A stretch of DNA of 49,015 nt from an uncultured Bacteroidales bacterium (lineage in GTDB: Bacteria > Bacteroidota > Bacteroidia > Bacteroidales > WCHB1-69), in contig ONCM01000021.1 of NCBI GenBank assembly GCA_900316305.1, positions 1 through 49,015 on the forward strand, in the 5' to 3' direction. Shown piece after piece: positions 16,043 through 47,326 of the stretch. Position 1 is the first letter of the stretch. The number at the start of each line of letters is the position of its first letter. The translations under genes and the position numbers were made by a program. The notes beneath the pieces were generated by a model. The model did no database searches. It was not told the DNA's origin and saw only the letters and a list, made by a program, of their open reading frames with translations.

Positions 16043-16058
16043 TTCAAAATGCATAATT

Positions 16059-16085
16059 ACGGGGACTCGGAAGGGTTCCCGTTTT
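16059..16085 (+). terminator. Terminator after the LytTR gene (CTCGGAAGGG-loop family)
   Basis: ACGGG pairs with CCCGT around GACTCGGAAGGGTTC, then TTTTAG. It has the same loop sequence as 10208-10239 and 20339-20368. A decayed second copy follows at about 16118-16135 (ACGGGGATTCGGAATGG). Confidence 0.75.
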
Positions 16086-16205
16086 AGTTAGAAGTTAGCA
16101 GTTAGAAGTTAGCAGTTTACGGGGATTCGGAATGGTGCGGCATCAATACGTGCAGATACGCGAGATACGCGGAGATATAATCAAGCAAGATACGCGGGGA
16201 AACTA
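16086..16205. repeat. GTTAGCA repeats and GATACGCG words
   Basis: GTTAGAAGTTAGCAG repeated twice (16088-16118), then three copies of AGATACGCGG-like words (16153-16200). The same words appear at 12715-12730 and 20390-20400. No gene is supported in this gap. Confidence 0.65.
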
Positions 16206-16215
16206 TAATCTCGCA

Positions 16216-19187: not shown

Positions 19188-19199
19188 TCCCCTGCCGTT

Positions 19200-33172: not shown

Positions 33173-33676
33173 CTAGTCGCACCGTATAATCCTCCTGGCA
33201 CCACCGTAGGTCGTCTGATAGTTCGAGTCGGTGAAACGGCTCACGCAAACACAACCGTTACCGGCAGAGGCATGGATAAACTTGAAATCTCCATTTTCAT
33301 AGTCAGAAATGGCAATCCCCACATGTGAAATATGCCGATTCGGATACTCTCCTGAGACAAAAAACACCAAATCACCACGCTTGATATTGGTCAGAAACAC
33401 CCGCTCTCCTTCAATGCATAACGTGCTGGTGGTGCGGGTGACCACAACTCCCACTTGGTGAAAAGCATAGTTCACAAGTCCGGAACAATCATAAGTATTA
33501 GGACCTGATCCTCCCCATTCGTATGGACATCCCAACTTTAAGCGTGCAAACAAGATTACTTCGTCAATCCGATCCTCACAACTCCTATCGTCAATACCAA
33601 CAGACTGCGCTGAGCCATGAAAAGCACCATTAAGCGTCAACAAAAGAACAAGAAGGATTAATCGGGTAAATCGCAT
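33173..33676 (-). CDS. Secreted NlpC/P60 cell-wall hydrolase
   Basis: 167 residues. A signal peptide (about 1-24: MRFTRLILLVLLLTLNGAFHGSAQ) precedes an NlpC/P60 domain with catalytic Cys64 in TYDCSGLVNYAFHQVG, the GDLVFF strand, His118 in ISHVGIAIS and a third polar site near FIHAS (His135). It cleaves peptide stems of peptidoglycan (gamma-D-Glu-diamino acid bonds) in the periplasm. It is the last gene of the long minus-strand operon, 11 nt after the TssF-like gene, so it could open the wall for the envelope complex encoded upstream, or be an exported toxin. No immunity gene is evident. Confidence 0.88.
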   Translation of the reverse strand: MRFTRLILLVLLLTLNGAFHGSAQSVGIDDRSCEDRIDEVILFARLKLGCPYEWGGSGPNTYDCSGLVNYAFHQVGVVVTRTTSTLCIEGERVFLTNIKRGDLVFFVSGEYPNRHISHVGIAISDYENGDFKFIHASAGNGCVCVSRFTDSNYQTTYGGARRIIRCD

Positions 33677-33687
33677 ATTTTTGGGGA

Positions 33688-35475
33688 TTACAATCTAACA
33701 TTCACTTCGAATTCACAAAAACCTGTAGTTCGGAGGTTGATTTTCTGTTGTAATTCTGTGGATACACGTTGAGCGAAATCCTCTGGAATCTCGAGATTTT
33801 GGGGTTGGGCTAACGAGATAGACACCACCATTTTCTGCTGTCCTTCACAAATATCAGGTTGAAAGGTTATATCCAATACCATCTCTTTCGGTATCTGATA
33901 CACGCCTCGCAACTCCTTATAACAGAATTGTTTGATGTCGAACTTCGTAATCAGCCTATCTCTCGTCAAATGATAATAGCTGGCCATTTGCTGAAGTGTT
34001 TCCTCGTCAGTAACCTCATCACGACCACCAAATGTAGTCAGCATAATGGCACTTCCCGCCTCATCGAATATTGGGGGTAGTTTCACGGCACAAGATGGCG
34101 TTAATCCATTTCCCTGCTGTCCGTCCGTAAGCAGATATGACACTGCCATCCTGGACTGACCGCCGGAAACATAGGCATTAGAATGCTTTTGGAGCATCAC
34201 ATATACTCCTTCATAGGCAGACTGATTTTTACTGATGATGCTCTCTATCTCATTTAACAAGACCCTCACCTCGTTCACTTTCTCGTCAAAATCGATATCG
34301 GCAAAGGGCCTAAACGCATGGAAATCGGACGAATAGCGATGCGTGAGGGCACGCGTCTGTGATACGAGTTTCCCTGCATGATATCGTTCCGCACCAAAAC
34401 GGCGAAGGGTAATTTGCTCAGCGTCAAAAGAACGATCTGAAGGAGCAAGCAATTGAAGGAGTTCTTTTCCATTTTTCACAGTATGCACGATCGGAGAATC
34501 TTTCTTTTCCTGAAAGTCAACACTTTTCTCCATGGCAATCTTTTTAATAGGCTCCTCGGCAGACAAATTGACGCTACCTTTTTCTACATTCACGACAGGT
34601 ATGCAATTGATAAGTACATCGTCTTCTGTTAGGTTCACTTCTTCTAAACCAACAGTCAGTTGAATAGACAATGTAGATTGATCTTCGACTTTATAATCTC
34701 CTAAATAAAACAACTTGTCAGTCAATGGGGCCAATCTATCCAACCAACTTTCCGTTGTCCCGTAGAGAAGGGAACGATTGAAAACACAATGGTTCACATT
34801 GAAGATGTCACACAATGGCAAACGATCGTAGTCCTTGAGAGAAAACACAGGAACTTGTACGCCATCCACATGGAGGGACAACGATGATATGGTATGATTG
34901 GGGAAATAGAGAGATACGCCAGAAAGATTGTCAAAATTGAATTTTCCAGATAGGGTTATATCAAAAGTGTTCCGATTGACTTTTCTGACAGCGCCTATCG
35001 TCGCGTTCAGAATTTTAGTCTTCAAAAGGGGCATGAACGAAAAGCTCTCCTGCTCTTTGAAGCGCATTTTGGTTTTAGAACGCTTTTCCAAACGAATCAC
35101 CGTGGAATCATCCACTACGTGTGAAACTTCTGAGCCATCCACCATTTTCACTCGCAAAACCGTCATGGAAGGTGTCGGCCTGGTCAACGTGAAAGGGACA
35201 GTCCTTCGGATGAATTCATCCAATATGGATGTGCGCAACGCCGAAACCTGTTCTTTCAACAGATTTGTCTGATGTGCCAACGCAGTCATCAACAGGTTAA
35301 GGACAGGGTCTCGCTCCAAATTTTGCCTCACGGCGTTTTCTTCAGCCTCATCCAATCTCTTATTCGAGAAAGATTTGCCATCATTAAAGCTGTCTAAAAG
35401 CCCGTCTTGCTCCCATTGTTTGATAGCTTTGTTGAGCAGTTCTCTGCCTGATTGTATATTCAATTGATTATCCAT
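33688..35475 (-). CDS. tssF: TssF-like baseplate protein
   Basis: 595 residues. Similarity to T6SS TssF and baseplate-J-type proteins is seen in the N-terminal block ERDPVLNLLMTALAHQTNLLKEQVSALRTSILDEFIRRTVPF, in NFDNLSGVSLYF, in the 'NC.P.vN' motif (DDVLINCIPVVNVEKG) and in the C-terminal block TTFGGRDEVTDEETLQQMASYYHLTRDRLITKFDIKQFCYKEL, followed by a beta domain. TssF forms the wedge of the contractile baseplate with TssE, TssG and TssK. The ATG at 35475 lies 5 nt after the tssE stop; a GTG at 35485-35487 overlapping tssE is the alternative. No tail sheath or tube gene is present in the window. The relation to the Bacteroidetes subtype (T6SSiii) is by resemblance, not by computed search. 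Confidence 0.72.
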   Translation of the reverse strand: MDNQLNIQSGRELLNKAIKQWEQDGLLDSFNDGKSFSNKRLDEAEENAVRQNLERDPVLNLLMTALAHQTNLLKEQVSALRTSILDEFIRRTVPFTLTRPTPSMTVLRVKMVDGSEVSHVVDDSTVIRLEKRSKTKMRFKEQESFSFMPLLKTKILNATIGAVRKVNRNTFDITLSGKFNFDNLSGVSLYFPNHTISSLSLHVDGVQVPVFSLKDYDRLPLCDIFNVNHCVFNRSLLYGTTESWLDRLAPLTDKLFYLGDYKVEDQSTLSIQLTVGLEEVNLTEDDVLINCIPVVNVEKGSVNLSAEEPIKKIAMEKSVDFQEKKDSPIVHTVKNGKELLQLLAPSDRSFDAEQITLRRFGAERYHAGKLVSQTRALTHRYSSDFHAFRPFADIDFDEKVNEVRVLLNEIESIISKNQSAYEGVYVMLQKHSNAYVSGGQSRMAVSYLLTDGQQGNGLTPSCAVKLPPIFDEAGSAIMLTTFGGRDEVTDEETLQQMASYYHLTRDRLITKFDIKQFCYKELRGVYQIPKEMVLDITFQPDICEGQQKMVVSISLAQPQNLEIPEDFAQRVSTELQQKINLRTTGFCEFEVNVRL

Positions 35476-35480
35476 AACTA

Positions 35481-35915
35481 TTACCACACATAAAAATCGA
35501 CCTCATGGCTGTAATTTTGGGTTTTATCGCCTTTAATCAGTCCTGAAATCAACAGTTTGACATTATGTTTTCTCGAATCGTAATCCATCGTCACCTCACT
35601 CACACTCATTCGAGGCTCGTACTTTTCGATATTGCGTTTTAAGGCGTATGCGAAATTTTTCGGATTTTTGCTCGACCCCGTGATCTTAAAGTCGCTCATG
35701 GGTTCGTCTGCCTTCATGCAAGCAACGGTACGCTTCTTCTCATCAAAGTTCTCGAAACGGAAATTCTTAAAAACAAAGCCGAAATCGGGATCCGCCTTGA
35801 ATTGACCCATCGGGGTGGCGATCAACAAATCAATGAAGCGGTCAACGGATTTCTTGATATCCGTTTCCTGCTCCACCGTACCGTTCGTTATCTGAAAGGG
35901 TATCTTAATGTACAT
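35481..35915 (-). CDS. tssE: TssE / gp25-like baseplate wedge protein
   Basis: 144 residues, the usual size for the gp25 family. Core motifs are DIKKSVDRFIDLLIATPMGQFKADPDFGFVFKNFRFENFD near the N-terminus, and the C-terminal EPRMSVSEVTMDYDSRKHNVKLLISGLIKGDKTQNYSHEVDFYVW. The family nucleates sheath assembly at the baseplate in T6SS, phage T4 and extracellular injection systems. The EPR motif (EPRMSVSEV, about residue 97) is conserved in gp25/TssE. It starts 2 nt after the TssK stop, so the baseplate genes are tightly linked. Confidence 0.82.
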   Translation of the reverse strand: MYIKIPFQITNGTVEQETDIKKSVDRFIDLLIATPMGQFKADPDFGFVFKNFRFENFDEKKRTVACMKADEPMSDFKITGSSKNPKNFAYALKRNIEKYEPRMSVSEVTMDYDSRKHNVKLLISGLIKGDKTQNYSHEVDFYVW

Positions 35916-35917
35916 CG

Positions 35918-36826
35918 TTACAACATATAAGTGAGTTCCTCTTCCTCCGGTTCCGGTTTCGGTTTTTCCACTACCGGTACGGGTTCAGTTTTGACTTCTT
36001 GGAGATAGGCTATGGCAGCATGAAGGTACGATAATGCCTCTTGGATGGTCTCGAAAAGTGCATTCGGATTGAATTCCCGCCAAATAAAGTTGTCCATTCG
36101 AGTCATAAGGGTTTCGTCTGCATCGTCAAATAAATGGTTGGCTTTGACAACAAATATGATTTTTTTCAGACGAGTGACAAACGAGGCGGGAAGATCACTG
36201 CTAAGTGTATTGGACCATTCAATGAGCAAGTAGCCGATTTGGCCGTAAGCGGCCGTAAGTTCCCTCTTTTCGACTAACTCAAGCATCTTCGTAATCTGTT
36301 GGCGACAATGTCCTGCCAAGTCAGCCAACTGGTTACATGCATTGATTGAGAAACAAGGTGGAATAAAGTCCAAAACTTCCCATTCTCCATTCTCCGCCCT
36401 AAGTTTCATTATCGGAAACAACAAAGGAGAAGAAGGATTGAACAGATTGATTAGTTGAAATTTATAATTTCTCTCCACCTGAGGAACACCATTTTTCTCA
36501 ACATGTTCTTCTTCCCCGTATGAAACGGTCAGATAGTACGTTCCTTGAACTTCCTTGGGAAGCGGAAGAGTTACACCTTTCGTAATATTCAAAAGATTTC
36601 CCTCACTGTCCATGATGGTACAGGCTATTTTGTCAAGCGTAAGTTTATGGTCGAGAATCGTATATTTCAGTTCAAAATCACGCATCGGGACAAGTCCGTA
36701 TGCGAAAGGCACCAACATCTGGCGATTTATTCTACTGATATTATCATGGTGACTATCCGCATAAAGAAACGTTTCCGGCATTATTTCCATGCCCTTTTTC
36801 CAGTCTATTCTATTAAATGTCTTCAT
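35918..36826 (-). CDS. tssK: TssK-like baseplate protein
   Basis: 302 residues from the ATG at 36826, which lies 4 nt after the upstream gene's stop. The N-terminal block FNRIDWKKGMEIMPETFLYADSHHDNISRINRQMLVPFAYGLVPMRDFEL follows the TssK pattern (V-x-W-x-E-G-M...P-x-x-F/L...). It is shorter than TssK of Proteobacteria, in keeping with Bacteroidetes versions. The middle is helical (CRQQITKMLELVEKRELTAAYGQIGYLLIEWSNTL) and the C-terminus is Pro/Glu-rich (VPVVEKPKPEPEEEE). TssK links the baseplate to the membrane complex and to effectors. Neighbours are TssE- and TssF-like genes. Confidence 0.7.
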   Translation of the reverse strand: MKTFNRIDWKKGMEIMPETFLYADSHHDNISRINRQMLVPFAYGLVPMRDFELKYTILDHKLTLDKIACTIMDSEGNLLNITKGVTLPLPKEVQGTYYLTVSYGEEEHVEKNGVPQVERNYKFQLINLFNPSSPLLFPIMKLRAENGEWEVLDFIPPCFSINACNQLADLAGHCRQQITKMLELVEKRELTAAYGQIGYLLIEWSNTLSSDLPASFVTRLKKIIFVVKANHLFDDADETLMTRMDNFIWREFNPNALFETIQEALSYLHAAIAYLQEVKTEPVPVVEKPKPEPEEEELTYML

Positions 36827-36830
36827 ACTG

Positions 36831-37628
36831 TTAAAGATAAGTGTTATAATCCAACGTAAGGGTTCCATCCAGCACAAAAGGATGTCCCATTTCTTTTATA
36901 GCATATTCATAAGCCTGCTCAACAGGGAAAAACCACTCCGCCACAAACTGGACAAACTCACCCAGCTTCTGATACTGTGCGGCGTATTCTTTATTGGTCA
37001 ATGAGGATATGTAAAACACAATTCGGGCGACAGGAATATTATATTCATTCCCGGTAGTATCCGAAAATAATCGGAAAACCCGATGTATTTCCGTTTGAAA
37101 GCCTGTGATTGCGGTCATCAACCTCCCTATCAGCACATAATCACCTCTGATTTCAGATGCTTGTAACAACAAAGGAAGTGCTTTTTTTATTTCTGGATTC
37201 TGAATCGTCTGTACATCAATGTCATAAAGGGATTTCAATAACACCTCGACCGTTTCTGATTCCAAATTCTGAACGACATTGTCCAACCCAAGGGTGACGT
37301 GGAAAAATTCCGTGTCGAGAGGAACAAAGAAATTCAGAATGCGCTCTTTTACAGGGGTAAACGGTTTGGATCTCTGTTTTGGATCTCGCAGACGGTTCTC
37401 TTCCACCAAAAGTGCTTCCGGCAACAGATGGCACAAGCCATCGCGCGACAAACTGATCTGGTTGGGCATAGAATCCGACGTATCCACCTCCAAAAGATCC
37501 TCACAATAATTGCTGTAGAAAACCCCTTTTGAGCTAATCCGAACTGGCGCGTTATCTGGAAGATACGTGTTCACCCATGTCTCGGCTTTCAAATCGCCTA
37601 TCGGATCATATTGCTGATTGACTCTCAT
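36831..37628 (-). CDS. TssG-like or unknown baseplate-associated protein
   Basis: 265 residues, no signal peptide or membrane segment. The sequence is not readily recognisable. Its position directly before tssK-tssE-tssF and the motif 'SRDGLCHLLPEALLVEENRL' followed by a helical part (ERILNFFVPLDTEFFHVTLGLDNVVQNLE) and a C-terminal part (VRIVFYISSL-like, VQFVAEWFFPVEQAYEYAI, PFVLDGTLTLDYNTYL) suggest a TssG-like wedge subunit. I treat this as an inference from gene order. A 16-nt gap separates it from the E1-like gene upstream. An alternative is an adaptor specific to this operon that ties the ubiquitin-like enzymes to the baseplate. Confidence 0.6.
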   Translation of the reverse strand: MRVNQQYDPIGDLKAETWVNTYLPDNAPVRISSKGVFYSNYCEDLLEVDTSDSMPNQISLSRDGLCHLLPEALLVEENRLRDPKQRSKPFTPVKERILNFFVPLDTEFFHVTLGLDNVVQNLESETVEVLLKSLYDIDVQTIQNPEIKKALPLLLQASEIRGDYVLIGRLMTAITGFQTEIHRVFRLFSDTTGNEYNIPVARIVFYISSLTNKEYAAQYQKLGEFVQFVAEWFFPVEQAYEYAIKEMGHPFVLDGTLTLDYNTYL

Positions 37629-37644
37629 AATGATGGCGATATGA

Positions 37645-38844
37645 TTATTGGAAAGGATATCTGGATTCGTCTTTTGTCAGTTCCACATAGAAATACCCCG
37701 ATTCCGTCGTGATTTGCAGAATATCGAAATAAGGTATGCCAATTTCCCTGAGCGTCAACTGCTGGTATGGGAATTCCTCGTCAATATTCTCGTAGGTGTT
37801 CTGATTCAAATCCATTCGCAATCGGCAATAGAGTTGGGGATTCGAGTCGATGTAATCGGGAATCTTCGACTCGGGAAGCATCGGCATGAAGCATTGGTTA
37901 TCGTTCCGAGTAGCGATTTTATCCACAAAGCGATCGTTCCGAAGGTTGATTTCCACGCTCTCCACATTCAGCAGATCCTTGAGCATAGCAATACAGTTCT
38001 CCACCGTGATGTCGGCTGACAGTTGCGGAATCTTGAATACGGGTTTCCAATACTCGTGGGATGGACAATCGGTATGATAAGCGGTTGATTTGTAAATTTT
38101 CACATTGTTATGCATCCCCTCGTAATGGAACCACTGGCCACATAAGGAGGTCAGTTCACCCTTATACAGTTCCTCTGGATGAAGAAGCTTCATAGCCTCC
38201 TGCGTTTGCACGGCGCCGATGATAGAGGCGATAACGGGAGTCGTGGGGATGCGTCCTGCATCTTCGTTGCGCTTGGCCACGCCCGCGCAGGACATCTTCT
38301 GGAACAGGTTGTGTTTGGCAGTGTCCGAAAGGCCGCATTCGTAGCAGTTCACACCGCGTTTGAACACTTTCACCACACCGTTCAGATCTTCGATACCACC
38401 ATCGACCCAAGGCACGCCGGCACGCATACACTGGCGGTTCAGCTGCAGACGGGCCAGGCGGCTATCCAAACAGCCGATCACCACGTCCATCTGCTTATAG
38501 ACACCCAAACCGACATCCGAATTCAGGTTGCCCACAATGTATTGCACATTGATGTTCTTGTTAATTTCTTTTATGCGTTTGGCAGCCACTTCTGCCTTAT
38601 ACAATCCCTTGTCGGCATCGGATTCGCGGAAAAGGATGGAGCGTGTCAGGTTGGAATACTCAATGGTGTCAAAATCCACAATATAGATATTGCCCACGCC
38701 AAACAGTGCGAGATTTTTCAGCACTTCGTTTCCTAATGCGCCCGCGCCCACGACCATCACTTTGGCCTTCTTCACATTCTCTTGCTTAAACCAGGAGAGC
38801 AGCGAAAAAACACCTGCACCCCATTCTTTGCGTTCGTTTGCCAT
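37645..38844 (-). CDS. E1-like ubiquitin-activating enzyme (ThiF/MoeB superfamily)
   Basis: 399 residues from the ATG at 38844, 2 nt after the upstream barrel gene. The adenylation domain has the GAGALG nucleotide loop (33-38), DFDTIEYSNLTRSILF with the R-finger (57-72), Lys82, GCLDSRLAR (124-132) and GVPWVDGG (143-150). Zinc ligands are CYEC (167-170) and probably CPSH (260-263), matching the two Cys pairs of MoeB/E1. Cys186 (MSCAGVAKR) is the candidate catalytic cysteine. Residues about 270-399 form an extra C-terminal domain with beta-grasp character (TLREIGIPYFDILQITTESGYFYVEL), like the E2-recruiting UFD of eukaryotic E1s. It should adenylate the Gly terminus of the ubiquitin-like protein at 47006-47326 and pass it to the E2 at 46400-46999. 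Confidence 0.9.
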   Translation of the reverse strand: MANERKEWGAGVFSLLSWFKQENVKKAKVMVVGAGALGNEVLKNLALFGVGNIYIVDFDTIEYSNLTRSILFRESDADKGLYKAEVAAKRIKEINKNINVQYIVGNLNSDVGLGVYKQMDVVIGCLDSRLARLQLNRQCMRAGVPWVDGGIEDLNGVVKVFKRGVNCYECGLSDTAKHNLFQKMSCAGVAKRNEDAGRIPTTPVIASIIGAVQTQEAMKLLHPEELYKGELTSLCGQWFHYEGMHNNVKIYKSTAYHTDCPSHEYWKPVFKIPQLSADITVENCIAMLKDLLNVESVEINLRNDRFVDKIATRNDNQCFMPMLPESKIPDYIDSNPQLYCRLRMDLNQNTYENIDEEFPYQQLTLREIGIPYFDILQITTESGYFYVELTKDESRYPFQ

Positions 38845-38846
38845 AA

Positions 38847-40127
38847 TTATTTGTTTTTTATTCCAAAGATATACATGATTCCCACCTCCAATCCAGAATT
38901 TATAAAACGACATCCTTTGCCCGACAACAGATTGTATTGGTTCAGGCGGTAAGTTGCTCCTGGAAGATGTTCATCCTCAGGCAAGCCTTTTGACACGGGA
39001 GTGATGGCGAAATCCACTTTGACCCCCAATTTGACTACCCAAGGCGAGGTTTTACCTTGCTGAACACGGCACAAAGGCAGGTAAATGCCACCCGCCAGCC
39101 GGCCTGTCAACAGGAAACGATTCACTTCCGCATTTTTCGTCCTCGTTTCAAGATTTATATCGCGTCCGAAGCCCAACGGTGAAAATTCATCCAATGTGAG
39201 ATCCACTGGGTTTCCATCAATTTGACTGTAATGTCCCGAAAGACTATAATATCCCGATGCACGCAATGTTGAGGCGATGCAAAACGAAGGTACCAGCGTG
39301 AATTGCACGTACCCGCTGATGCGGTCGTGATAGGGCTGCCCGATTGAGAGTGTGAGCGGAATACTGAGATAGTGCATGGCGGCGCTTTCCTCCACATTCC
39401 GACATGAAAGAGAGGCTGTGTAGGAACATTGGTCCGAATCCGTTGCCGCGAGAGCATTGTCCGACAGCTGTCCTATCCCGGCAGCAAACCTCAGCCGGCT
39501 ATACTCCAGACCAACCCCTAAGGACAAGGAACCTTTGGACACCAAGGAACGACTGCCCCAATAGAGCCCAATCTGATGAGAAAGGGTCATCCGACGGTTC
39601 CACACCGACTGCCCTGAAATGTCCTTTTGGTCCAAGAGGGAGCTAAACAGCAACGGTATTCCGATACTGTAGCTCACCCCGAGATGCGGACATTCCGCCG
39701 AAAGGCTTCTGCCACCATGTTCGGGGACATCTACTTTTGCCAAACTGTCCCGAATGGCCAGCAAAGAAGCGTTGAGGGTGTTCACACGATTGGTCAGCGA
39801 GTCAATGGTTCGTTCCCGGTCAAGAAGGTCGCGCTCCTGGATAATCAATTGCATCTGGAGGCTGTCATCCTGCACGGGAGCTTTCCCTTTGAGTTTGTTC
39901 AACTCTTTCTGCAGGGATGCCTTCTCCTTCTCCAACTGGGAAACGGTCTTATTCAACTCCGTCACCAAACCGTATTCTAAATATTGGATATCATCAGGGC
40001 TCCCTTTATAGTACTTCATTTTGACAATATGGCCCTTGTACTTTCCCGTGACCACATTCTGCCCAAAGAGAATATTTGTGCAGCACAGGAAAATCAGCAA
40101 GCCTATTGCAAACTTCAAAATTTTCAT
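38847..40127 (-). CDS. Outer-membrane beta-barrel with coiled-coil N-terminus
   Basis: 426 residues. A signal peptide (MKILKFAIGLLIFLCCTNILFGQ) is followed by a short beta segment, a coiled coil (about 58-130: LNKTVSQLEKEKASLQKELNKLKGK, IQERDLLDRERTIDSLTNRVNTLNASLLAIRDSL), and then about 290 residues of amphipathic beta strands ending SGLEVGIMYIFGIKNK, with a terminal aromatic residue pattern typical of barrels. Probably an outer-membrane protein whose coiled coil spans the periplasm. It lies between the RING/FHA membrane protein and the E1, gaps 6 and 2 nt, so it is co-expressed with the ubiquitin-like machinery. It may dock the complex to the outer membrane; function unproven. Confidence 0.75.
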   Translation of the reverse strand: MKILKFAIGLLIFLCCTNILFGQNVVTGKYKGHIVKMKYYKGSPDDIQYLEYGLVTELNKTVSQLEKEKASLQKELNKLKGKAPVQDDSLQMQLIIQERDLLDRERTIDSLTNRVNTLNASLLAIRDSLAKVDVPEHGGRSLSAECPHLGVSYSIGIPLLFSSLLDQKDISGQSVWNRRMTLSHQIGLYWGSRSLVSKGSLSLGVGLEYSRLRFAAGIGQLSDNALAATDSDQCSYTASLSCRNVEESAAMHYLSIPLTLSIGQPYHDRISGYVQFTLVPSFCIASTLRASGYYSLSGHYSQIDGNPVDLTLDEFSPLGFGRDINLETRTKNAEVNRFLLTGRLAGGIYLPLCRVQQGKTSPWVVKLGVKVDFAITPVSKGLPEDEHLPGATYRLNQYNLLSGKGCRFINSGLEVGIMYIFGIKNK

Positions 40128-40133
40128 AACAAA

Positions 40134-42557
40134 TTATTTATCTTTTTCAATATAGGTAAACAACGTATTCCCAATGGTAAATTCCGTACCATGGTTCAGC
40201 AGGATAGTCTGTCCTTTCTCCATCACTTGTCCGCTGGGCAGACGGGTACCGTCGGCAAGTGCCCGACAATAGGGCCGGTCGTTCTCCAAATAGATCTCCA
40301 CCTGCTTGTCGGCAATATTACTGGCATCGTCCCAGTTCATCTCCAAGACACAGTCTATGGATTTGCCTATCGTCACCTTGTTGAATCCGCCCGTCACGCT
40401 CATCCACTTGTAGATGGCGATGTCACGTTCCTTCACCGGGCCGGAAATCCGCAAGAAGTACTTTTCGGAGACAAAGTGCACCACCGCGATGGCGATGCCG
40501 AAGCCAGCGGCGTAGATCATATAGCTGAACATACTGAGTACATCTTTGGCAAAAGTGGCCAGATAGAGCACCACAAAACTGATCAGCACGGAAATCAGAC
40601 CGCCAATCAAGGCACTCTTAAGGTTGATGTCTGTCTTGAAGGAAAGGGTGAAGGCTATTCCAACGGCAAACAGAGCCCACGGAATCCAGTCGGTGTAAAT
40701 GCAGTTGGTGTCTTTTCCCAAGAGGATGATTATCACGGCACCGAGCAGGAAGGCGCTGAACCCAACCACACTACCCACCAAGGCTCGCAAAAGCATAAGA
40801 CTCCATATTTTGAGGTTTTTCTTCCTGAATTCAATCTGATAACTGAAGAACAGGGTGATGAAAAAGCCTAACAAAAGACCACAGAGCAGCATGGACTGGA
40901 TTTTGGAGACGAACGACATGGTGGTGAATCCTTGCAGGGTATCAGCCGGTCGCAGCAGATTCACCAACCCGGTAATCATCGATGAAAACAGGGTCTCCGA
41001 ATAGCACAACCGCATGAAAAACCACGACACCAGACCCGCCATCAGGCCGTACACCATCCACATCACAAAGTAGGGGGCGTTGCGCGGATCCGAAAGTTGC
41101 TCCTTGTTGTAATAATGGATGCCCTTGGAGCAGTTGTGGATACCGTATTCCGGACAACGGTTCCGGTTCTCCTCCCAACACTCAAGATGCACCACATGTT
41201 CGCATTTCACCACTATTTTATCCCCGTCTTGAAATGGTTCCTTGCAATGATAGCAATGCTGCTGCTCGACCGGCGAGCCGCTGTTGCTACTCCGATAATC
41301 CACGATATACTTCTTACAGAATATCTTATATTGAATCCAAGGCACGAGATATTGCAGGATCAAATAAGCCAACAAGATGAAAATCAGGCCATAAAGCAAA
41401 CCCGTCAGAATCGTGTGTCGGTTTGAGGTGGTGTTCCCCTCCGATGCCACAATGATCGGAATATGCTGGTTTCCAAACGCGTAGTTCATAACCCCTTGTG
41501 CCAATACCGTGGCATTGTCCCGCAACGTAACAGTAAGCGTACGTTGTGTGCCGTCGTACGTTTTGCCCACAGGATTCACCAACACCAGCCTGTAATCAGC
41601 TGCGATGGAGTCAATGGTTCCCATCAGGGTCTCTTGCAGTTGCGCAACATCGAACAGGGTGTGGAACTGTCCTTTCAGCGCGTCTTTCGTGGGTGCGGAC
41701 GCGCAAAGGGCCTCCATCTCATCCTTGATATTGGCCGTAGCGGCAGGATCGCCGATATAAATACAATGTATCGGCACGTACGGAATCTCCGAATGCGCCT
41801 GTTTCTCCGACAGTTCCCAAATTTCCCCTTTCCACTTGAAAAAGTCGGCACCGATAAACGTGCCGTCGGAATTCATCACCCGACCGTCCGTGAACACAAA
41901 CAACATCTTCTGCGTGGAATCCTGAAGGGCGGGATTGTGCGGCACTTCAGGGTAATGCATCCCGAAAGTACCCGACAGTTCCTCCATCTTGGCCATGATC
42001 GCCTTGTAGAGATATTTCTCCGTGCCCTCCTTCACGACAAATTCCTCATAGAACTTGAATTTCATGTTCTCCTTCGTAGCCAAAAGGCTCGGTGTCACGG
42101 TACTATCCATGAACGATAAGTAGATTTTAGTATTCGGCAGGATGTCTATGATATGACAGATTTGAGTATATTGTTCCAACAGCTCATTCTGCGAAATGCT
42201 CCCACTTCTGTCCACGAGAAACAGCATGGAGATCTGGTCGGAAATGACCTTTTTCTGACGAATGTCTATGACGGAATCCACTTTAGGAGGCATATCCTGC
42301 CCCATCGTACTCACATCAGACACGATAAAATTGCCCGCACTGAGCTGATTGACAAACTTCTTCTTGCCCGCCGCATCCAGAATCTTGAAATCCACATAGA
42401 GCGTGTCCGCTTTCTCTGATTTCGAGAGTTGCACGATGGATATCGAATCCGACGGCGCTGTTGCTGACGAATTCAGCTGTCCGGCCTGTTGTCCCCGCTG
42501 GCACGCGGCACCGAGGAGCAAAGCCACCGCAATCATAAAAACAAACTGTTTTTTCAT
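40134..42557 (-). CDS. vWA / RING-H2-like / multi-TM / FHA membrane protein (candidate E3)
   Basis: 807 residues. The N-terminus (MKKQFVFMIAVALLLGAAC) is a signal or lipoprotein-type leader, giving a periplasmic vWA domain (about 108-320) with the MIDAS motif DRSGS (116-120). A membrane helix (383-405) leads to a cytosolic RING-H2-like zinc site: C435, C438, C452, H454, H457, C460, C468, C476, with Cys-x2-Cys, Cys-x-His-x2-His-x2-Cys-Trp and a less regular last pair. About six more helices follow (497-518, 555-573, 587-612, 624-640, 648-670, 676-695). The tail (about 718-805) is FHA-like (VTIGKSIDCVLEM...DKQVEIYLE...LNHGTEFTIGNTLFTY). Between JAMM and E1 genes, a RING-like membrane protein is a natural E3 candidate, and FHA and vWA domains recall T6SS regulators. 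The last two are inferences. Confidence 0.82.
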   Translation of the reverse strand: MKKQFVFMIAVALLLGAACQRGQQAGQLNSSATAPSDSISIVQLSKSEKADTLYVDFKILDAAGKKKFVNQLSAGNFIVSDVSTMGQDMPPKVDSVIDIRQKKVISDQISMLFLVDRSGSISQNELLEQYTQICHIIDILPNTKIYLSFMDSTVTPSLLATKENMKFKFYEEFVVKEGTEKYLYKAIMAKMEELSGTFGMHYPEVPHNPALQDSTQKMLFVFTDGRVMNSDGTFIGADFFKWKGEIWELSEKQAHSEIPYVPIHCIYIGDPAATANIKDEMEALCASAPTKDALKGQFHTLFDVAQLQETLMGTIDSIAADYRLVLVNPVGKTYDGTQRTLTVTLRDNATVLAQGVMNYAFGNQHIPIIVASEGNTTSNRHTILTGLLYGLIFILLAYLILQYLVPWIQYKIFCKKYIVDYRSSNSGSPVEQQHCYHCKEPFQDGDKIVVKCEHVVHLECWEENRNRCPEYGIHNCSKGIHYYNKEQLSDPRNAPYFVMWMVYGLMAGLVSWFFMRLCYSETLFSSMITGLVNLLRPADTLQGFTTMSFVSKIQSMLLCGLLLGFFITLFFSYQIEFRKKNLKIWSLMLLRALVGSVVGFSAFLLGAVIIILLGKDTNCIYTDWIPWALFAVGIAFTLSFKTDINLKSALIGGLISVLISFVVLYLATFAKDVLSMFSYMIYAAGFGIAIAVVHFVSEKYFLRISGPVKERDIAIYKWMSVTGGFNKVTIGKSIDCVLEMNWDDASNIADKQVEIYLENDRPYCRALADGTRLPSGQVMEKGQTILLNHGTEFTIGNTLFTYIEKDK

Positions 42558-42574
42558 AGCTATATCTGTTTTAT

Positions 42575-44194
42575 TTATACTCTTTTTCTTCGAGTCCACT
42601 CCTTCATCTCTTTGAGGGATGTATGAATGAACCGTATTTTCTGCTCGACATTAAGCCATACCAAGTAACATTCCTGCTCAGAACGATATACAAGACAAAA
42701 GTCGGCTTGGATGAGCTTATCATCGCAACGATGCGCGTCAAACGCCTCTTCCGTATCGGAGTCCACGACCAGCCAGCCGATTTGACTATCTTCGCCAGAT
42801 ACACCGCAAGCCGTGACAACGCGGGTCTTTTTTCCCTCGTTCTGACGAATCTCCCCATAGAGGGGATAGGATTCTTCAGAAATTTCCGCATAAACCGCAT
42901 CGTCAATCTGGTTGATGGCTTTGGCAGAGAAGGCGAATTCGTCCTTCAGGTCCTCCGTCGAGACAATGAAACTGTTCTCCACGGTTGCCGACTGCACGGC
43001 AACCGTCTTGTGTCGGCTCCATTCGTTCAGCACGTCAAAGGAGATGGTCTTGAGCAAATCATCCTTATTGTTCATTCCCCCGCTGTTCTTTGCCGTGAAG
43101 AAAGCCATCTGCCAGTTCGGGGTATTGGTGTCAATCACAATGGCCACCATGCGTTTAGGCGCATCCGGGTAGGCAAGTTGCTTCTGCACCACCAGATCAT
43201 GGGAAGAGAGGAACAGACCCAGTCCCGGATGGGAATGCATCCAGACAGTGTGCACATAATCCCGCCCGGTCTTTTCGCACAGATTGCGGATGGCACTGCC
43301 CAGTTTGATGCCGATTTTGAGTCCGAAATTCAGCGAATACTCGTCGTAAACCGCGTCATCACCGGGAATCACCATCTCTTCGACGCTGATATTGTATTGC
43401 TCATCGTTCCCGTCCACCGTCTCCCAGCCGCCAATCAGGTAGCATCCAGTCTCATTGGTGCGCTCGGGCTGCTCAAGGAATGCCTTGTAATAGCTATTGA
43501 GACTTTTCACCGCCTCACGGGAGAAATAGACCTTCTTCACCGCTGTGTCAAGACAGAACTCCCCCATATCAACCGCAAAAAATGCCTCAGGATGCTGGCG
43601 AATATAGTCCAACCCGACCACATAGTCGTTCTTTTCCTCTTCCACCACCTGCATCACATGCTGGTTTTCCTCCGGCAGGTCATCCTTCACTTTCCGTTTT
43701 CTTCTCAACAAAAGAAGAGCGACTACCAAAACAACCAGCAGCAGGAAGCCGCCGGAAGCGAAATAGATCACCGATTCGCCTAGCTCAAGCCATTTGGCAT
43801 AGAAAGGGGTCTTCGGAGTGTCTTCCGCTTCTTCAGCAAAGTTCCGAAGGTCGATTTTCACACTGTATGGTTGATCGTAAACCTCCATCCTTTGGGGATT
43901 CCTGAAATAAACGGTCAGGGAATCGTATCCAGCTATTTCCTCGGGAGTGATGTCTTTGACAACGTAACTTTTTTCCTGTTCCAAAATCTTGCAGGAATCC
44001 CCTACAAAACGTTTCAACGAAACAGGCATATTCTCCGCAGGGAGGAGGGCACAAAGATTACTCGGTTTATCGATGATCAGCTCCTGAGTCTGGGCATCAT
44101 AATATACAGCCGCGATGCCCTTTTGTGCTGACGACACCATGGAAGTGCAGGACAACAGGACACAGGCGACTGCGATTCGCAGATACCGCTTCAT
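42575..44194 (-). CDS. Membrane-anchored JAB/JAMM metalloprotease (deconjugase)
   Basis: 539 residues from the ATG at 44194, where a signal peptide (MKRYLRIAVACVLLSCTSMVSSAQ) begins. About 115 residues of periplasmic beta domain (25-140) precede a membrane helix (142-163, YFASGGFLLLVVLVVALLLL) and a basic stop (RRKRK). The cytosolic JAMM domain (about 210-370) has the glutamate in NETGCYLIG (Glu248) and the zinc motif HSHPGLGLFLSSHD (His320, His322, Ser330, Asp333), an exact HxH-x7-S-x2-D. A C-terminal domain of about 160 residues is unassigned. It should cleave ubiquitin-like conjugates or process the precursor, but the ubiquitin-like protein already ends in Gly, so deconjugation is more likely. 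It sits 4 nt after the coiled-coil gene. Confidence 0.9.
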   Translation of the reverse strand: MKRYLRIAVACVLLSCTSMVSSAQKGIAAVYYDAQTQELIIDKPSNLCALLPAENMPVSLKRFVGDSCKILEQEKSYVVKDITPEEIAGYDSLTVYFRNPQRMEVYDQPYSVKIDLRNFAEEAEDTPKTPFYAKWLELGESVIYFASGGFLLLVVLVVALLLLRRKRKVKDDLPEENQHVMQVVEEEKNDYVVGLDYIRQHPEAFFAVDMGEFCLDTAVKKVYFSREAVKSLNSYYKAFLEQPERTNETGCYLIGGWETVDGNDEQYNISVEEMVIPGDDAVYDEYSLNFGLKIGIKLGSAIRNLCEKTGRDYVHTVWMHSHPGLGLFLSSHDLVVQKQLAYPDAPKRMVAIVIDTNTPNWQMAFFTAKNSGGMNNKDDLLKTISFDVLNEWSRHKTVAVQSATVENSFIVSTEDLKDEFAFSAKAINQIDDAVYAEISEESYPLYGEIRQNEGKKTRVVTACGVSGEDSQIGWLVVDSDTEEAFDAHRCDDKLIQADFCLVYRSEQECYLVWLNVEQKIRFIHTSLKEMKEWTRRKRV

Positions 44195-44198
44195 CGCA

Positions 44199-44972
44199 CT
44201 ATATGGACGGGGTATATTTTTTCTTCTTTTTTCCATTAAGCTGTTTGTTAAGTTGTTTCTTACTCACAATAAGATTAATCAAGAAAGCCAGCAAAGCCGC
44301 CACGATGGTTACTTTGAAAATAATGTCGCCCCATTTGACGGTTTCGATGTTCTGGGCTTCGCTGATAGTTTTATGACCGCTGTCTATCCGCTTGCACAGG
44401 GAGTCCAAAAGCGGATTTGACGCGATGATATCCTTATGTTGGATTTTCTGGGTGGCAAAGACCGGGTAGAGATCCATATCCCTGTTCTTCAAGGCAACAA
44501 GAGTGTCTTTGGCGGCCTTCCGCTTCATCTGGGGAAGTTGTTGGAATATGGCCGTGAGTTGGTCGTACTGGAGAGCCGTCAAAGTGAATTCCGTCTCCAA
44601 GTCGCGGGCCAGCGCCTCTACCTTGGCTTCCTGTTGAAGTATCTCCATCTTCTCGTCAATAGCCTTGCGCAAAACCATGATATCCATCCACATATCGTAA
44701 AGAATCTGGCTCTGCAAAGTAATAAACGACCTGTTTTCGTTATAGAAGACATCCATCTGCGTCGTGCATCTGAGATAATCGTCAGAGAGCCGGTCACAGT
44801 CCGTGAACGAGATCATCTCTCTTTCAATGGACTCCAACTGCGCCTGATAGTTCTTCAGCTCGCTCTTGATCGCCTTGACCGAATCGGCATAACCGCTCTG
44901 CGACACCGCCCGCATCGGCAATGTCAACACCAAAACAGCCCAAACTACGATTGACAGAGTTTTCGTTCTCAT
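44199..44972 (-). CDS. Envelope coiled-coil protein with C-terminal membrane helix
   Basis: 257 residues from the ATG at 44972; a GTG two codons upstream is the alternative. The N-terminal signal (MRTKTLSIVVWAVLVLTLPMRAVSQS) leads to a helical, coiled-coil-rich periplasmic region (DSVKAIKSELKNYQAQLESIEREM, LRKAIDEKMEILQQEAKVEALARDLE, LTAIFQQLPQMKRKAAKDTLVALKNRDM). A C-terminal membrane helix (about 219-238, IIFKVTIVAALLAFLINLIV) and a basic cytosolic tail (SKKQLNKQLNGKKKKKY) follow. It may form a periplasmic scaffold with the JAMM and RING proteins, which share its topology. No family is recognised. Gaps of 5 and 4 nt on either side show operon membership. Confidence 0.75.
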   Translation of the reverse strand: MRTKTLSIVVWAVLVLTLPMRAVSQSGYADSVKAIKSELKNYQAQLESIEREMISFTDCDRLSDDYLRCTTQMDVFYNENRSFITLQSQILYDMWMDIMVLRKAIDEKMEILQQEAKVEALARDLETEFTLTALQYDQLTAIFQQLPQMKRKAAKDTLVALKNRDMDLYPVFATQKIQHKDIIASNPLLDSLCKRIDSGHKTISEAQNIETVKWGDIIFKVTIVAALLAFLINLIVSKKQLNKQLNGKKKKKYTPSI

Positions 44973-44977
44973 AACCA

Positions 44978-46393
44978 CTATTTTACAGCATTCTGATAAG
45001 CCCTTTTCGCATCCTGATATTGTTGGATGACTGTCTGGTACTTTTTGTTATTCTTGCACGCATCTGAAAACTCTTTCAGATAGGAGTCCGTCTCCCTGAC
45101 GATACTGTAGAAAGTCTGTTCGTTCTTGACTTTCTTGACACGGTATTCGTTCAGCAAATTGTTGATTTTCATCGTCGCCGACTTAATTCTCTCCTGATCT
45201 ATATTACAATGAGAACCTCCGCCGCCACCGGTTCCGCCACCAGTTCCACTACCACCGGGGCATTTAAGGTCGTTCAGCATCTTTCGGCGATCCACAAAAC
45301 GTTTTGCCAGACTCTTCAATTCCGGAAATTCCTTGTATTGGTTCTCATCAAACGACACTTCGTTGAATTTGGCAGCATTTTCTTTGTATTTCCTGCACGC
45401 CTTGCCATTTCCAGTGTTCTTGGCAATGGAGATATCATCAATGAGCGCATCCATTTGCGCAATCATCCGTTGCAAAGAGTCCGCCGTGACAATGCCCTCC
45501 CCTATTTTGTTGTAATAGCGGTGGAATGTGGCATACTCCTGTTCCAGTTCTCCACAATCGGTCTCCACAATACCCTTGCGGGCGGTCTCGTACTTGCCCA
45601 AAAGTTCCATTTTCCGAAGGACAACCTCTTTCGAACTTCCCGAAGGGTCTCTTTTCTCAATTTGATAGTCAAGCAGTTTCTGATAATCTTTGGTCAGTTC
45701 TTCATTCCATTGCCTGTATTTGCTGATCATCTCGTGCTGTCCGAAACAGTTGCTTTCCGGCAACCTCAACGATATGGAGAAGTTGTTGGAGATGTATTGC
45801 AAGGCCACTTTGTTAAAGAACTGGGGAAAGTCATACTTCGCTTTTATAGGAATTACATTGTTGATTTTCAATATAGTGGGGACAGTTGCATTGGTGATTC
45901 TGATCTTCAGCACAATCACCTTGTCTCCCGAAAGTGCCATCATCACATCCGACTCTTTCTCGTTCAAAAGCAGCCCGTTCACACACTCGAAAGCCGGTTT
46001 TGGAGCAAATCCGTCTTTTATTTGGGATTTCATATCCGTGGTCATATCCAATTTCGACCTATAATTATTTTTGAAGTGGTCACGCAGCATTTGGTCGTTG
46101 AATTGTTTGCCACTAAGCGAAGAAGGGCACCAGAGGTGAGTGAGCCAGTCCTTTTTCTTCATCGGCCTTTCATAACGGCTGCGGACAACCACATTGATAA
46201 TGTCCTGTTGAGGATCGTAAGTGGCCTCCAGCATCAAAGGAACCGACTGGCAATCGTTGGACGGTCCGCGGAGGATGACCGGGATATATTGTGTTTTTTC
46301 CGGCTCTACAGCGTAGGAGAGCACCACGTCATTCTGTGCAAAAACTGCATTCAGACTGAGAATCGAAAAGAAAATCAGCAAATATTTTTTCAT
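44978..46393 (-). CDS. Secreted helical/beta protein of unknown function
   Basis: 471 residues. The signal peptide (MKKYLLIFFSILSLNAVFAQ) is followed by a beta-rich N-terminal part (NDVVLSYAVEPEKTQYIPVIL..., AKYDFPQFFNKVALQYISNNFSISLRLP). A long helical region (about 230-390) comes next, then a Gly-rich linker between two cysteines (CPGGSGTGGG...SHC), then a helical tail (MKINNLLNEYRVKKVKNEQTFYSIVRETDSYLKEFSDACKNN). I recognise no domain. It starts 6 nt after the E2-like gene and ends 5 nt before the next ATG. A periplasmic structural subunit of the envelope complex is the most natural guess. Confidence 0.72.
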   Translation of the reverse strand: MKKYLLIFFSILSLNAVFAQNDVVLSYAVEPEKTQYIPVILRGPSNDCQSVPLMLEATYDPQQDIINVVVRSRYERPMKKKDWLTHLWCPSSLSGKQFNDQMLRDHFKNNYRSKLDMTTDMKSQIKDGFAPKPAFECVNGLLLNEKESDVMMALSGDKVIVLKIRITNATVPTILKINNVIPIKAKYDFPQFFNKVALQYISNNFSISLRLPESNCFGQHEMISKYRQWNEELTKDYQKLLDYQIEKRDPSGSSKEVVLRKMELLGKYETARKGIVETDCGELEQEYATFHRYYNKIGEGIVTADSLQRMIAQMDALIDDISIAKNTGNGKACRKYKENAAKFNEVSFDENQYKEFPELKSLAKRFVDRRKMLNDLKCPGGSGTGGGTGGGGGSHCNIDQERIKSATMKINNLLNEYRVKKVKNEQTFYSIVRETDSYLKEFSDACKNNKKYQTVIQQYQDAKRAYQNAVK

Positions 46394-46399
46394 TGTCCT

Positions 46400-46999
46400 T
46401 TATTCGTTTTGTAAATTATGATACTCCTGCAGTTCCGTAATCCAGCCGTTGGGTTCCGCCTGGTCGAGCACCCATTCCGCAACCTTGTTATCCTGCGGGT
46501 AAGGAGGCGTGTTCAGGGCATGGTACTTTTCATACTTCAGATAGGAGACCACCCGGTTGATATAGAACGACAGATCGGTATAGCTTCCACAGGCATTGGT
46601 GTTCAGGCACACCAGTCCGGCAAAATCACCGAAATAGCGGATGTTGGGGTGCCAAGGGTGCGGAATCTTGAGACCAGTGGGTGTTTGGGTGAGGAACTTG
46701 AACTCCAGTTTGGAATCCACCCCCGGATAGTTGTTGGGGATGATGATGCGCATGATGAATTCATCATGGAAAACCGGCCGTTGCCATCCGTTTTCGTCGG
46801 CCTCCTCCACCCCGCAGAACGACTTGATATTGAAAATGATTTCGTAGATGACGGGAAGCCCTTCGGCGTTTCGCTTCCGGATGATGTAGCTCACCTCCGG
46901 ATTATGCATATAGCGCTCGTCAATGGACATCCATTCGTTCAGCAATCGCGCATTTCGTCCTATAAAATGCTTGTCTTTGTATTTTTCTACCTCTCTCAT
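46400..46999 (-). CDS. E2-like ubiquitin-conjugating enzyme
   Basis: 199 residues, no signal peptide, UBC fold. After the N-terminal helix (RNARLLNEWMSID...) come the beta meander (EVSYIIRKRNAEGLPVIYEIIFNIKSF...), IIIPNNYPGVDSKLEFKF (YP motif), the HPN triad (117-119, IPHPWHPNIRYFG) and the catalytic Cys131 in GLVCLNTN, followed by LSFYINRVVSYLKYEKYHALN (usually 'l..vl..i...l..pN..'). This is a true active E2-type arrangement, not an inactive UEV. It takes the ubiquitin-like protein from the E1 and passes it to target lysines, perhaps with the RING-like protein. Gaps to neighbours are 6 nt each, so it is co-translated with the ubiquitin-like gene. Confidence 0.92.
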   Translation of the reverse strand: MREVEKYKDKHFIGRNARLLNEWMSIDERYMHNPEVSYIIRKRNAEGLPVIYEIIFNIKSFCGVEEADENGWQRPVFHDEFIMRIIIPNNYPGVDSKLEFKFLTQTPTGLKIPHPWHPNIRYFGDFAGLVCLNTNACGSYTDLSFYINRVVSYLKYEKYHALNTPPYPQDNKVAEWVLDQAEPNGWITELQEYHNLQNE

Positions 47000-47005
47000 C
47001 TTCTC

Positions 47006-47326
47006 TTAGCCGGCTATAGGGTCCATAATCACTTCCAACGTATCACCGCTTTTCACGTTATAGTCACGCAAGCAGCACTCCGTCTTTCCAATTTTGGGGT
47101 TAAGAATAATAAAATTATCGTTTTCGTCCTTCTTTCCGAAGAAATATTCCACCACCACACCGTCCTTATCGACGTTCGGCAGGTCAAAAATGGCTTTCCC
47201 GTTTTCGTCCGTACTATGACGCAGGTTCTGCATCAGCACATTCAGCGTAGCGTTGGGATCGATCAGCTTGTAACGGATCGTCTTGTTCTTGTAATGCACT
47301 CTGAGGTAAAAGTCGTCTCTTTCCAT
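47006..47326 (-). CDS. Ubiquitin-like modifier ending in Gly
   Basis: 106 residues, cytosolic. The beta-grasp pattern is visible: YLRVHYKNKTIRYKLIDPNATLNVLMQNL at the start (strand-strand-helix) and CLRDYNVKSGDTLEVIMDPIAG at the end, which lines up with the last part of ubiquitin (DYNIQKESTLHLVLRLRGG). The chain ends in Ala-Gly, so the C-terminal glycine is already exposed and could be adenylated directly by the E1-like enzyme. The middle (about 36-75) is longer than in ubiquitin. It is next to the E2 (6-nt gap). The T9SS repeat protein ends 21 nt upstream with no clear promoter box between, so the operon may start farther up or inside that gene. Confidence 0.85.
   Translation of the reverse strand: MERDDFYLRVHYKNKTIRYKLIDPNATLNVLMQNLRHSTDENGKAIFDLPNVDKDGVVVEYFFGKKDENDNFIILNPKIGKTECCLRDYNVKSGDTLEVIMDPIAG

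Follow-up and report, generated by a model that had tools for sequence, protein, structure and literature searches.

The operon described here lies on a 49,015-nucleotide contig from an uncultured gut and rumen bacterium of the Bacteroidales. This contig (C55, one of 99 in a source genome of 3.28 Mb) was analyzed in its entirety and is referred to below as the window. The operon encodes a ubiquitin-like protein (Ubl) with E1, E2, RING-type, and JAMM-type proteins, a cassette that had been recognized in a preliminary description of the sequence. From the E1 gene it then continues into genes for the baseplate of a type VI secretion system (T6SS; a spring-loaded machine that injects proteins), namely TssG-like, TssK, gp25/TssE, and TssF, a part that the description overlooked. 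The best explanation is that the operon encodes half of a T6SS, the baseplate and membrane portion, with a built-in Ubl conjugation pathway. The coupling of the cassette to the T6SS is well supported; we infer the substrate and role of the conjugation. It is probable that these genes represent a lineage of T6SS that relies on Ubl conjugation at the inner membrane in order to assemble or fire.

Conjugation and baseplate genes form one run

From 47326 to 33173 on the minus strand, adjacent genes overlap or are at most 16 nucleotides (nt) apart. The encoded proteins are, in order, the Ubl (106 amino acids, aa), the E2 (199 aa), g471, g259, the JAMM protein (553 aa), a membrane protein with vWA, RING, and FHA domains (vWA-RING-FHA; 821 aa), a 426-aa exported protein, and the E1 (422 aa, probably 399 aa), followed by proteins of 265, 319, 144, 599, and 167 aa (Table 1). 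The Ubl, E2, JAMM, vWA-RING-FHA, and E1 reading frames lie where the preliminary description had placed them. The 265-aa protein was designated TssG-like through its family, whose best match to the TssG model was 5.6e-10. The window copy had no family match, and comparison of the family with the PDB gave nothing convincing.

The remainder of the T6SS is encoded on a separate contig of the source genome, C48, which carries genes for a ClpV-type ATPase, TssC, two Hcp proteins (TssD), VgrG, and a DUF4280 PAAR-like protein, as well as effector-like genes. TssB on this contig was recognized only by position and family profile. The genome has one TssC, found with a Bacteroidota TssC query; the VipB model PF05943 failed to detect this sheath. 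Thus, a sheath, an Hcp tube, a VgrG/PAAR-type tip, and ClpV are present in the genome, along with a TssK/TssE/TssF/TssG baseplate in which TssG is assigned via its family only. Past the VgrG and PAAR-like genes are two effector-like genes (L090:15404-17782), one resembling an M23-type peptidase by eye and the other with a weak metallopeptidase match.

The gene set is conserved in two orders

Scanning public genomes with the window E2, by short peptide patterns and not exhaustively, yielded 78 related loci. The nearest E2 relatives of the source genome are in Bacteroidales metagenome-assembled genomes (MAGs; 98-100% identity). The loci are mostly from Bacteroidales of ruminant and other gut sources, with one from a Sphingobacteriia MAG, and include records named Xylanibacter, Prevotella, Bacteroides, Mediterranea, Parabacteroides, Alistipes, and Millionella. 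Iterated profile searches found the Ubl and E2 families in all 78 loci, vWA-RING-FHA in 77, g471 in 76, TssG-like and TssK in 75 each, g259 in 74, E1 in 73, gp25 and TssF in 65 each, JAMM in 13, and the 426-aa protein in 12; contig ends depress some of these counts. At least one baseplate gene accompanies the cassette in 77/78 loci, the exception (L023) being a stored stretch that ends within E1.

The gene set is therefore strongly conserved, as would be expected if the preliminary description of a ubiquitin-like conjugation and removal set was correct. That description had also called the set close to a minimal eukaryote-like system. The predicted parts for such a system are present, but the near-constant company of baseplate genes indicates that it is not free-standing.

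Both Ubl and E1 were found in 74 of the 79 sequences (the 78 loci and the window), permitting classification by gene order. The window and its kin have the order Ubl-E2-g471-g259-JAMM-(vWA-RING-FHA)-426 aa-E1-TssG-TssK-gp25-TssF, whereas most others have E1-TssG-TssK-gp25-TssF-Ubl-E2-g471-g259-(vWA-RING-FHA). The JAMM gene is present in 14/14 Ubl-first loci and in 0/60 E1-first loci. Inclusion of a deconjugase in the set, as previously suggested, thus holds for the first order and not universally. A JAMM motif search of 86 loci gave 20 positives, identical to the 20 found by profile. Tails extending past the conserved glycine of the Ubl occur in L019 and L093-L096, all with JAMM, and also in L003/L097, a 5.4-kb contig on which no JAMM gene was seen. 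This pattern fits trimming of a Ubl precursor by the JAMM protease, and ancestry could explain it too.

Genes found beside the JAMM-free cassette include those for a PEGA-domain protein (50 loci; e.g., L061:2883-4250), a DUF4280 PAAR-like protein (44 loci), and a 234-aa protein with a barely-over-cutoff match to ribosome recycling factor (37 loci; e.g., L068:3635-4339).

The cassette accompanies a T6SS sheath, and TssN is rarely detected with it

As background, 393 Bacteroidales genomes were searched with profiles for vWA-RING-FHA, TssC, and TssN, which gave matches in 6, 17, and 8 genomes, respectively. Of the six vWA-RING-FHA genomes, five have TssC (the sixth, G410, is in about 700 contigs) and none has TssN. 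TssC was found in seven of the eight TssN genomes. Five further genomes (G139, G624, G632, G654, and G713) have TssC without vWA-RING-FHA or TssN.

Fifty of the 78 cassette genomes were examined in the same manner; among the 28 omitted are 12 of the 13 loci whose own flank holds a full-length TssC. TssC was present in 46/50, as a single copy in 45. TssN was found in one, G795, which is also the sole genome with two TssC copies, one of them like that of the subtype iii T6SS (T6SSiii). This T6SSiii-like copy scored 751 bits, compared with about 329-372 bits for cassette-type TssC (231 for a partial one). TssC is strongly enriched in the cassette genomes (46/50 versus 17/393; Fisher test, p 2e-43) and, within the background set, in the vWA-RING-FHA genomes (5/6 versus 12/387; p 5e-7). 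The avoidance of TssN among the 17 TssC genomes gave only p 0.04. All of these p-values are too small because the genomes are related. Direct linkage is also evident. For example, a collinear cluster on the G564 contig carrying locus L017 comprises ClpV, TssB, TssC, two Hcp, VgrG, and PAAR-like genes, the entire cassette, and the baseplate genes. In G437 the ClpV-to-VgrG genes lead to Ubl, E2, JAMM, and vWA-RING-FHA, with two more genes between.

These associations bear on whether the cassette is an independent phage-defense system of the Bil or CBASS (cyclic oligonucleotide-based antiphage signaling system) kind that stands beside T6SS genes by chance. Bacterial Ubl-type conjugation does act against phage, according to two reports (PMC10097602, PMC11153139), and the E1 matches PADLOC E1-E2 models (best 6.3e-15). 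However, PADLOC matched none of the Ubl, E2, JAMM, and RING proteins. Furthermore, both gene orders interleave the cassette with baseplate genes, and nearly all of the cassette genomes examined have TssC. We regard a phage-defense system as very improbable; Bil, CBASS, and chance neighbors were considered and dropped.

The failure to detect TssN raises another alternative. A profile search found none in the source genome, so TssN, which characterizes T6SSiii and is the core of the membrane complex known from Bacteroidota, is missing from the components detected. Among the window proteins there was no Pfam match to TssO, TssP, TssQ, or TssR at E 0.1; no genome-wide search for these four was made. 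TssN has a ubiquitin-like cytosolic domain that has been proposed to dock the baseplate, as stated in a 2024 survey (PMC10781749). Conceivably, the Ubl simply binds noncovalently in place of this domain, as a structural module, with the role of E1 and E2 minor or lost. The failure to detect TssN in the source genome and in all but one of the 50 cassette genomes examined would suit such a substitution. However, the C-terminal glycine of the Ubl, Cys131 of the E2, and Cys209 of the E1 are invariant, fitting catalysis, and we consider a purely structural role highly doubtful.

Active sites of the conjugation proteins are invariant

Single window sequences were searched against Pfam, and family profiles were searched separately. 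The window Ubl and E2 sequences gave no Pfam family match, and the window JAMM and RING proteins matched Prok-JAB (0.034) and Prok-RING_1 (0.0016) below the curated cutoffs. Identification therefore rests on the families. Residues are numbered as in the window, and the counts are over related rows, which number up to 78 loci plus the window.

The preliminary description of the first gene product as a Ubl ending in glycine is borne out. Gly106 is invariant in 79/79 rows and in 37/37 with deeper relatives added. When the Ubl profile was compared with the PDB, the best 30 of 60 listed matches were ubiquitins, ubiquitin variants, or UBD. E-values reached 3e-22 for tandem chains and ranged from 2.4e-5 (a designed variant) to about 0.07 for single-copy proteins, over profile positions 73-104. 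The predicted E2 likewise retains its HPN motif (His117, Pro118, and Asn119) and Cys131 in 79/79 rows, and in 31/31 with deeper relatives. UQ_con was matched by 28/31 members of the E2 family (best 9.6e-9), the window copy not being among them, and the family profile matched solved eukaryotic E2 structures in the PDB (best 9.5e-7). The Prok-E2_B model (PF14461) had no match in the source genome, a null result that is uninformative because the model matched no control either.

The E1 has a single ThiF adenylation stretch in Pfam. Its candidate catalytic cysteine, previously numbered Cys186, is Cys209 of the longest open reading frame (ORF) and is conserved in 74/74 rows, as are Cys190, Cys193, and Cys283. 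A ubiquitin-fold domain was suspected in the C-terminal part, and a PDB search with this part gave nothing convincing. In the RING-H2-like protein, C449, C452, C466, H468, H471, C474, and C482 are present in 78/78 rows and C490 in 76/78. All eight zinc ligands are complete in the window and in 18 of the 20 members aligned (L083 has seven of eight, and L092 is degenerate), with the last pair of ligands 6-7 residues apart versus the usual 2. Pfam matches among 20 members of this family were to zf-RING_2 (16), FHA (11), Prok-RING_1 (9), and VWA_2 (4). The JAMM protein has the deubiquitinase motif E...HxHP(x6)SxxD, with E262, H334, H336, S344, and D347 in 14/14 rows; its profile matched RPN11 at 1.3e-10, and 7/13 members matched Pfam JAB. 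For g471 there was no Pfam match, and g259 had only weak matches, which were taken as chance.

Judged from sequence, the operon thus has the elements of a Ubl conjugation pathway: a modifier with a C-terminal glycine, an E1 with an adenylation domain and cysteine, and an E2 with HPN and cysteine. The earlier parts list of modifier, E1, E2, RING candidate, and JAMM protease is supported at this level, and chance does not explain the combination of predicted active sites that are invariant and family matches.

TssC phylogeny and deeper relatives

A TssC tree was built from 26 rows, 18 of them cassette linked; two rows, L017 and L100, are the same gene fetched twice. Fifteen cassette-linked rows, including that of the source genome, form a 100/100 clade, and the TssN genomes are in a separate 100/100 clade. 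The TssC proteins of L080, L098, and L101 were placed outside the 15-row clade. A single clade of all 18 cassette-linked TssC rows was rejected (p-AU 2e-4), with long branches flagged. Therefore, either the cassette is ancestral and was then lost in some lineages or it has moved, a conclusion made unsure by the long branches. L102, the sister of L101 in the tree, had no vWA-RING-FHA or TssN match. Near its ClpV gene it encodes a protein Ser/Thr kinase (4.3e-34; 15721-17244, minus strand) and an FHA-trypsin protein (9.9e-16; 18725-19999, minus strand). This suggests, without proving, that a kinase-FHA pathway takes the controlling role in some systems and the cassette in others.

More distant E2 relatives were found in 8/395 genomes of the class. 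In L096, gp25 and TssF genes are divergent from the cassette; L095 has a ClpV fragment about 9 kb away and TssC on the same contig. In G202 the cassette is near an extracellular contractile injection system (eCIS), whose genes include those for a sheath, a tube, a VgrG-like protein, and gp25 (L116:1-8585), and near an eCIS_core protein (L092:156-5456). G321, the sister of G202, has eCIS_core proteins too.

Features of the window

Table 1. Genes of the operon in the window and the basis for each assignment (TM, transmembrane helix)
Feature	Coordinates	Strand	Basis
Ubl, 106 aa, C-terminal Gly	47006..47326	-	Ubiquitin profile match and invariant Gly106
E2, UBC-type, HPN and Cys131	46400..46999	-	UQ_con in family, PDB E2 matches
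g471, apparent signal peptide; candidate membrane-complex partner (putative role)	44978..46393	-	Family in 76/78 loci
g259, signal peptide and one C-terminal TM; candidate membrane-complex partner (putative role)	44199..44978	-	74/78 loci, hydropathy
JAMM/JAB protease, signal peptide and one TM (159-177)	42575..44236	-	RPN11 profile match, motif, hydropathy
vWA-RING-FHA membrane protein; candidate E3 and T6SS membrane-complex core	40134..42599	-	Family Pfam matches, RING ligands, TMs
426-aa exported protein	38847..40127	-	12/78 loci, signal-like N terminus
E1, ThiF/MoeB-type, Cys209	37645..38913, probable start 38844 (Met24 of ORF)	-	ThiF 1.7e-54
TssG-like baseplate protein	36831..37628	-	2/19 family members match TssG TIGR03347
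TssK	35918..36877	-	TIGR03353 3.7e-11, under curated cutoff
gp25/TssE	35481..35915	-	PF04965 9.5e-8, above cutoff
TssF	33688..35487	-	PF05947 3.7e-4, under cutoff; family in 65/78 loci
NlpC/P60 protein, final gene of run, membership unsure	33173..33676	-	PF00877 2.7e-21

The 426-aa protein, which is confined to the JAMM-bearing gene order, is predicted by eye to have a coiled coil and a barrel-like part. The NlpC/P60 gene begins 11 nt past TssF; it is known from the window sequence alone, with no counterpart in the stored stretches of the relatives. Upstream of the operon, 21 nt before ubl, a surface protein that is rich in repeats and bears a type IX sorting tail (PF18962) is encoded at 47348-49015 on the minus strand and truncated by the contig end; profile searches found relatives of it preceding ubl in 11/78 loci. 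Elsewhere in the window, between 25508 and 31552, are consecutive minus-strand genes for VTC-domain, DUF4956, and DUF2490 proteins and, on the plus strand (29702-31552), a gene for a CotH-kinase protein with a type IX sorting tail.

A model for conjugation at the inner membrane

Topology was predicted with a simple hydropathy scan. In the vWA-RING-FHA protein, a signal peptide is followed by a TM at 397-415 and by several more at 511-707, a layout that would place the vWA domain in the periplasm and the RING in the cytosol. The FHA domain would be cytosolic if the count of the later helices is even. The arrangement of the JAMM protein (Table 1) would leave its JAMM domain in the cytosol, and the C-terminal TM of g259 is near 219-243. 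The predicted cytosolic location of the RING and JAMM domains means that the candidate E3 and the protease would be on the same side of the inner membrane as the docking site of the T6SS baseplate.

In the proposed mechanism, the E1 would adenylate the C-terminal glycine of the Ubl and, via Cys209, hand the Ubl to Cys131 of the E2. Together, vWA-RING-FHA, g471, and g259 may form an inner-membrane complex that replaces TssN and its partners. The cytosolic RING would recruit the charged E2 to the baseplate docking site, where the Ubl would be joined to a subunit of the membrane complex or of the baseplate, permitting or controlling assembly or firing. In the JAMM-bearing gene order, the membrane-bound protease might remove the Ubl or trim its precursor. 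The FHA domain may link conjugation to phosphorylation.

A more specific version of this mechanism is that the covalently attached Ubl is itself an assembly part. Here, the dedicated E1, E2, and membrane RING would add to the membrane complex, posttranslationally, the ubiquitin-like docking surface that in T6SSiii is part of TssN, and conjugation would license baseplate docking. The absence of JAMM from the commoner gene order fits this reading, in which conjugation is a permanent step of construction and not a switch that is turned on and off. We hold this version only tentatively, as a rather doubtful one. If it is correct, the related cassette near the eCIS genes would imply a broader use of Ubl conjugation by the contractile injection machines of Bacteroidota.

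We consider it unlikely that cargo is instead the target of the pathway, with the Ubl tagging effectors (by conjugation to them or by being delivered itself) so that they are loaded or act in the target cell, and with the membrane proteins serving as ordinary anchors. PAAR-like and effector-like genes do occur near the cassette, as does an eCIS_core protein in L092. However, the closest and most constant neighbors are baseplate genes rather than effector genes, and the candidate E3 is an inner-membrane protein.

Several observations weigh against T6SS assembly or firing that depends on Ubl conjugation. The commoner gene order is without JAMM, and 4/50 cassette genomes gave no TssC. The TssN model was negative in 4 of the 11 genomes with T6SSiii-like TssC (G624, G632, G654, and G713), and therefore a TssN-like gene may have been overlooked. 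Among the deeper relatives, the RING ligands are lost in L092-L096 and the PF17541 sheath was undetected in three of the six class-wide relative genomes. The stretches of G001 that were read show no T6SS or eCIS gene, save AAA-ATPases that match the ClpV profile.

Comparison with known systems

E1, E2, and JAB chemistry occurs in bacteria in Cap2 and Cap3 of CBASS, in which Cap2 is an E1-E2 fusion that acts on a CD-NTase (cGAS/DncV-like nucleotidyltransferase). In the operon described here, in contrast, E1 and E2 are separate genes and there is a dedicated Ubl. No CD-NTase was found among the Pfam, NCBIfam, and PADLOC matches of the operon genes. Bacterial RING-linked E1/E2/JAB/Ubl neighborhoods (Pfam Prok-RING_1) were reportedly predicted by Burroughs, Iyer, and Aravind in 2011; that prediction is not known to have involved a T6SS. 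Because such neighborhoods had already been predicted, the novelty here is the coupling to the T6SS and the missing TssN. In the literature searched, coverage of which was incomplete, no report was found of a Ubl conjugation pathway as part of a T6SS or other bacterial secretion machine.

The BilABCD system, as described in PMC11354881, is a similar bacterial set of Ubl, E1, E2, and JAB proteins. BilB has a CEHH motif, BilD has an inactive and an active adenylation domain, and BilA resembles ISG15. Unlike BilABCD, the operon has an HPN-Cys E2, one adenylation domain in a single ThiF stretch, a single Ubl of 106 aa, a RING protein, and T6SS genes. The operon of Caldiarchaeum subterraneum is also similar, with a ubiquitin-like protein, E1, E2, RING protein, and JAMM protein (Rpn11), according to PMC5654768. 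There the RING protein is small and free and the cascade has been reconstituted, whereas here the RING is part of a large inner-membrane vWA/FHA protein in a pathway that is tied to a T6SS and predicted from sequence.

A human-gut survey (PMC4714493) found, by its initial method, no T6SS in nine Alistipes genomes; ubiquitin and ThiF are unmentioned in the portion available. The presence of the cassette in named cultured species, among them the commensals Xylanibacter ruminicola D31d and Mediterranea massiliensis, makes the function of early ubiquitin-like pathways directly testable on a visible machine.

In the 2024 survey of 1253 complete Bacteroidota genomes (PMC10781749), T6SSiii was the only T6SS type in the phylum. 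Its membrane complex (TssNQOPR) was present in all, in whole or in part, with tssN systematically between tssK and tssG, and TssR was noted to have a vWA-like domain. The system described here resembles T6SSiii in having PF17541-type TssC, TssD-type Hcp, VgrG, a PAAR-like protein, ClpV, and TssE/F/G/K. It differs in that TssN was undetected and vWA-RING-FHA, g471, and g259 are found instead. Furthermore, the TssG-like and TssK genes are adjacent, and E1, E2, and Ubl, with JAMM in one gene order, are built in. If the proposed interpretation is true, Bacteroidota hold a TssN-free T6SS lineage in addition to the T6SSiii that was the sole type in that survey.

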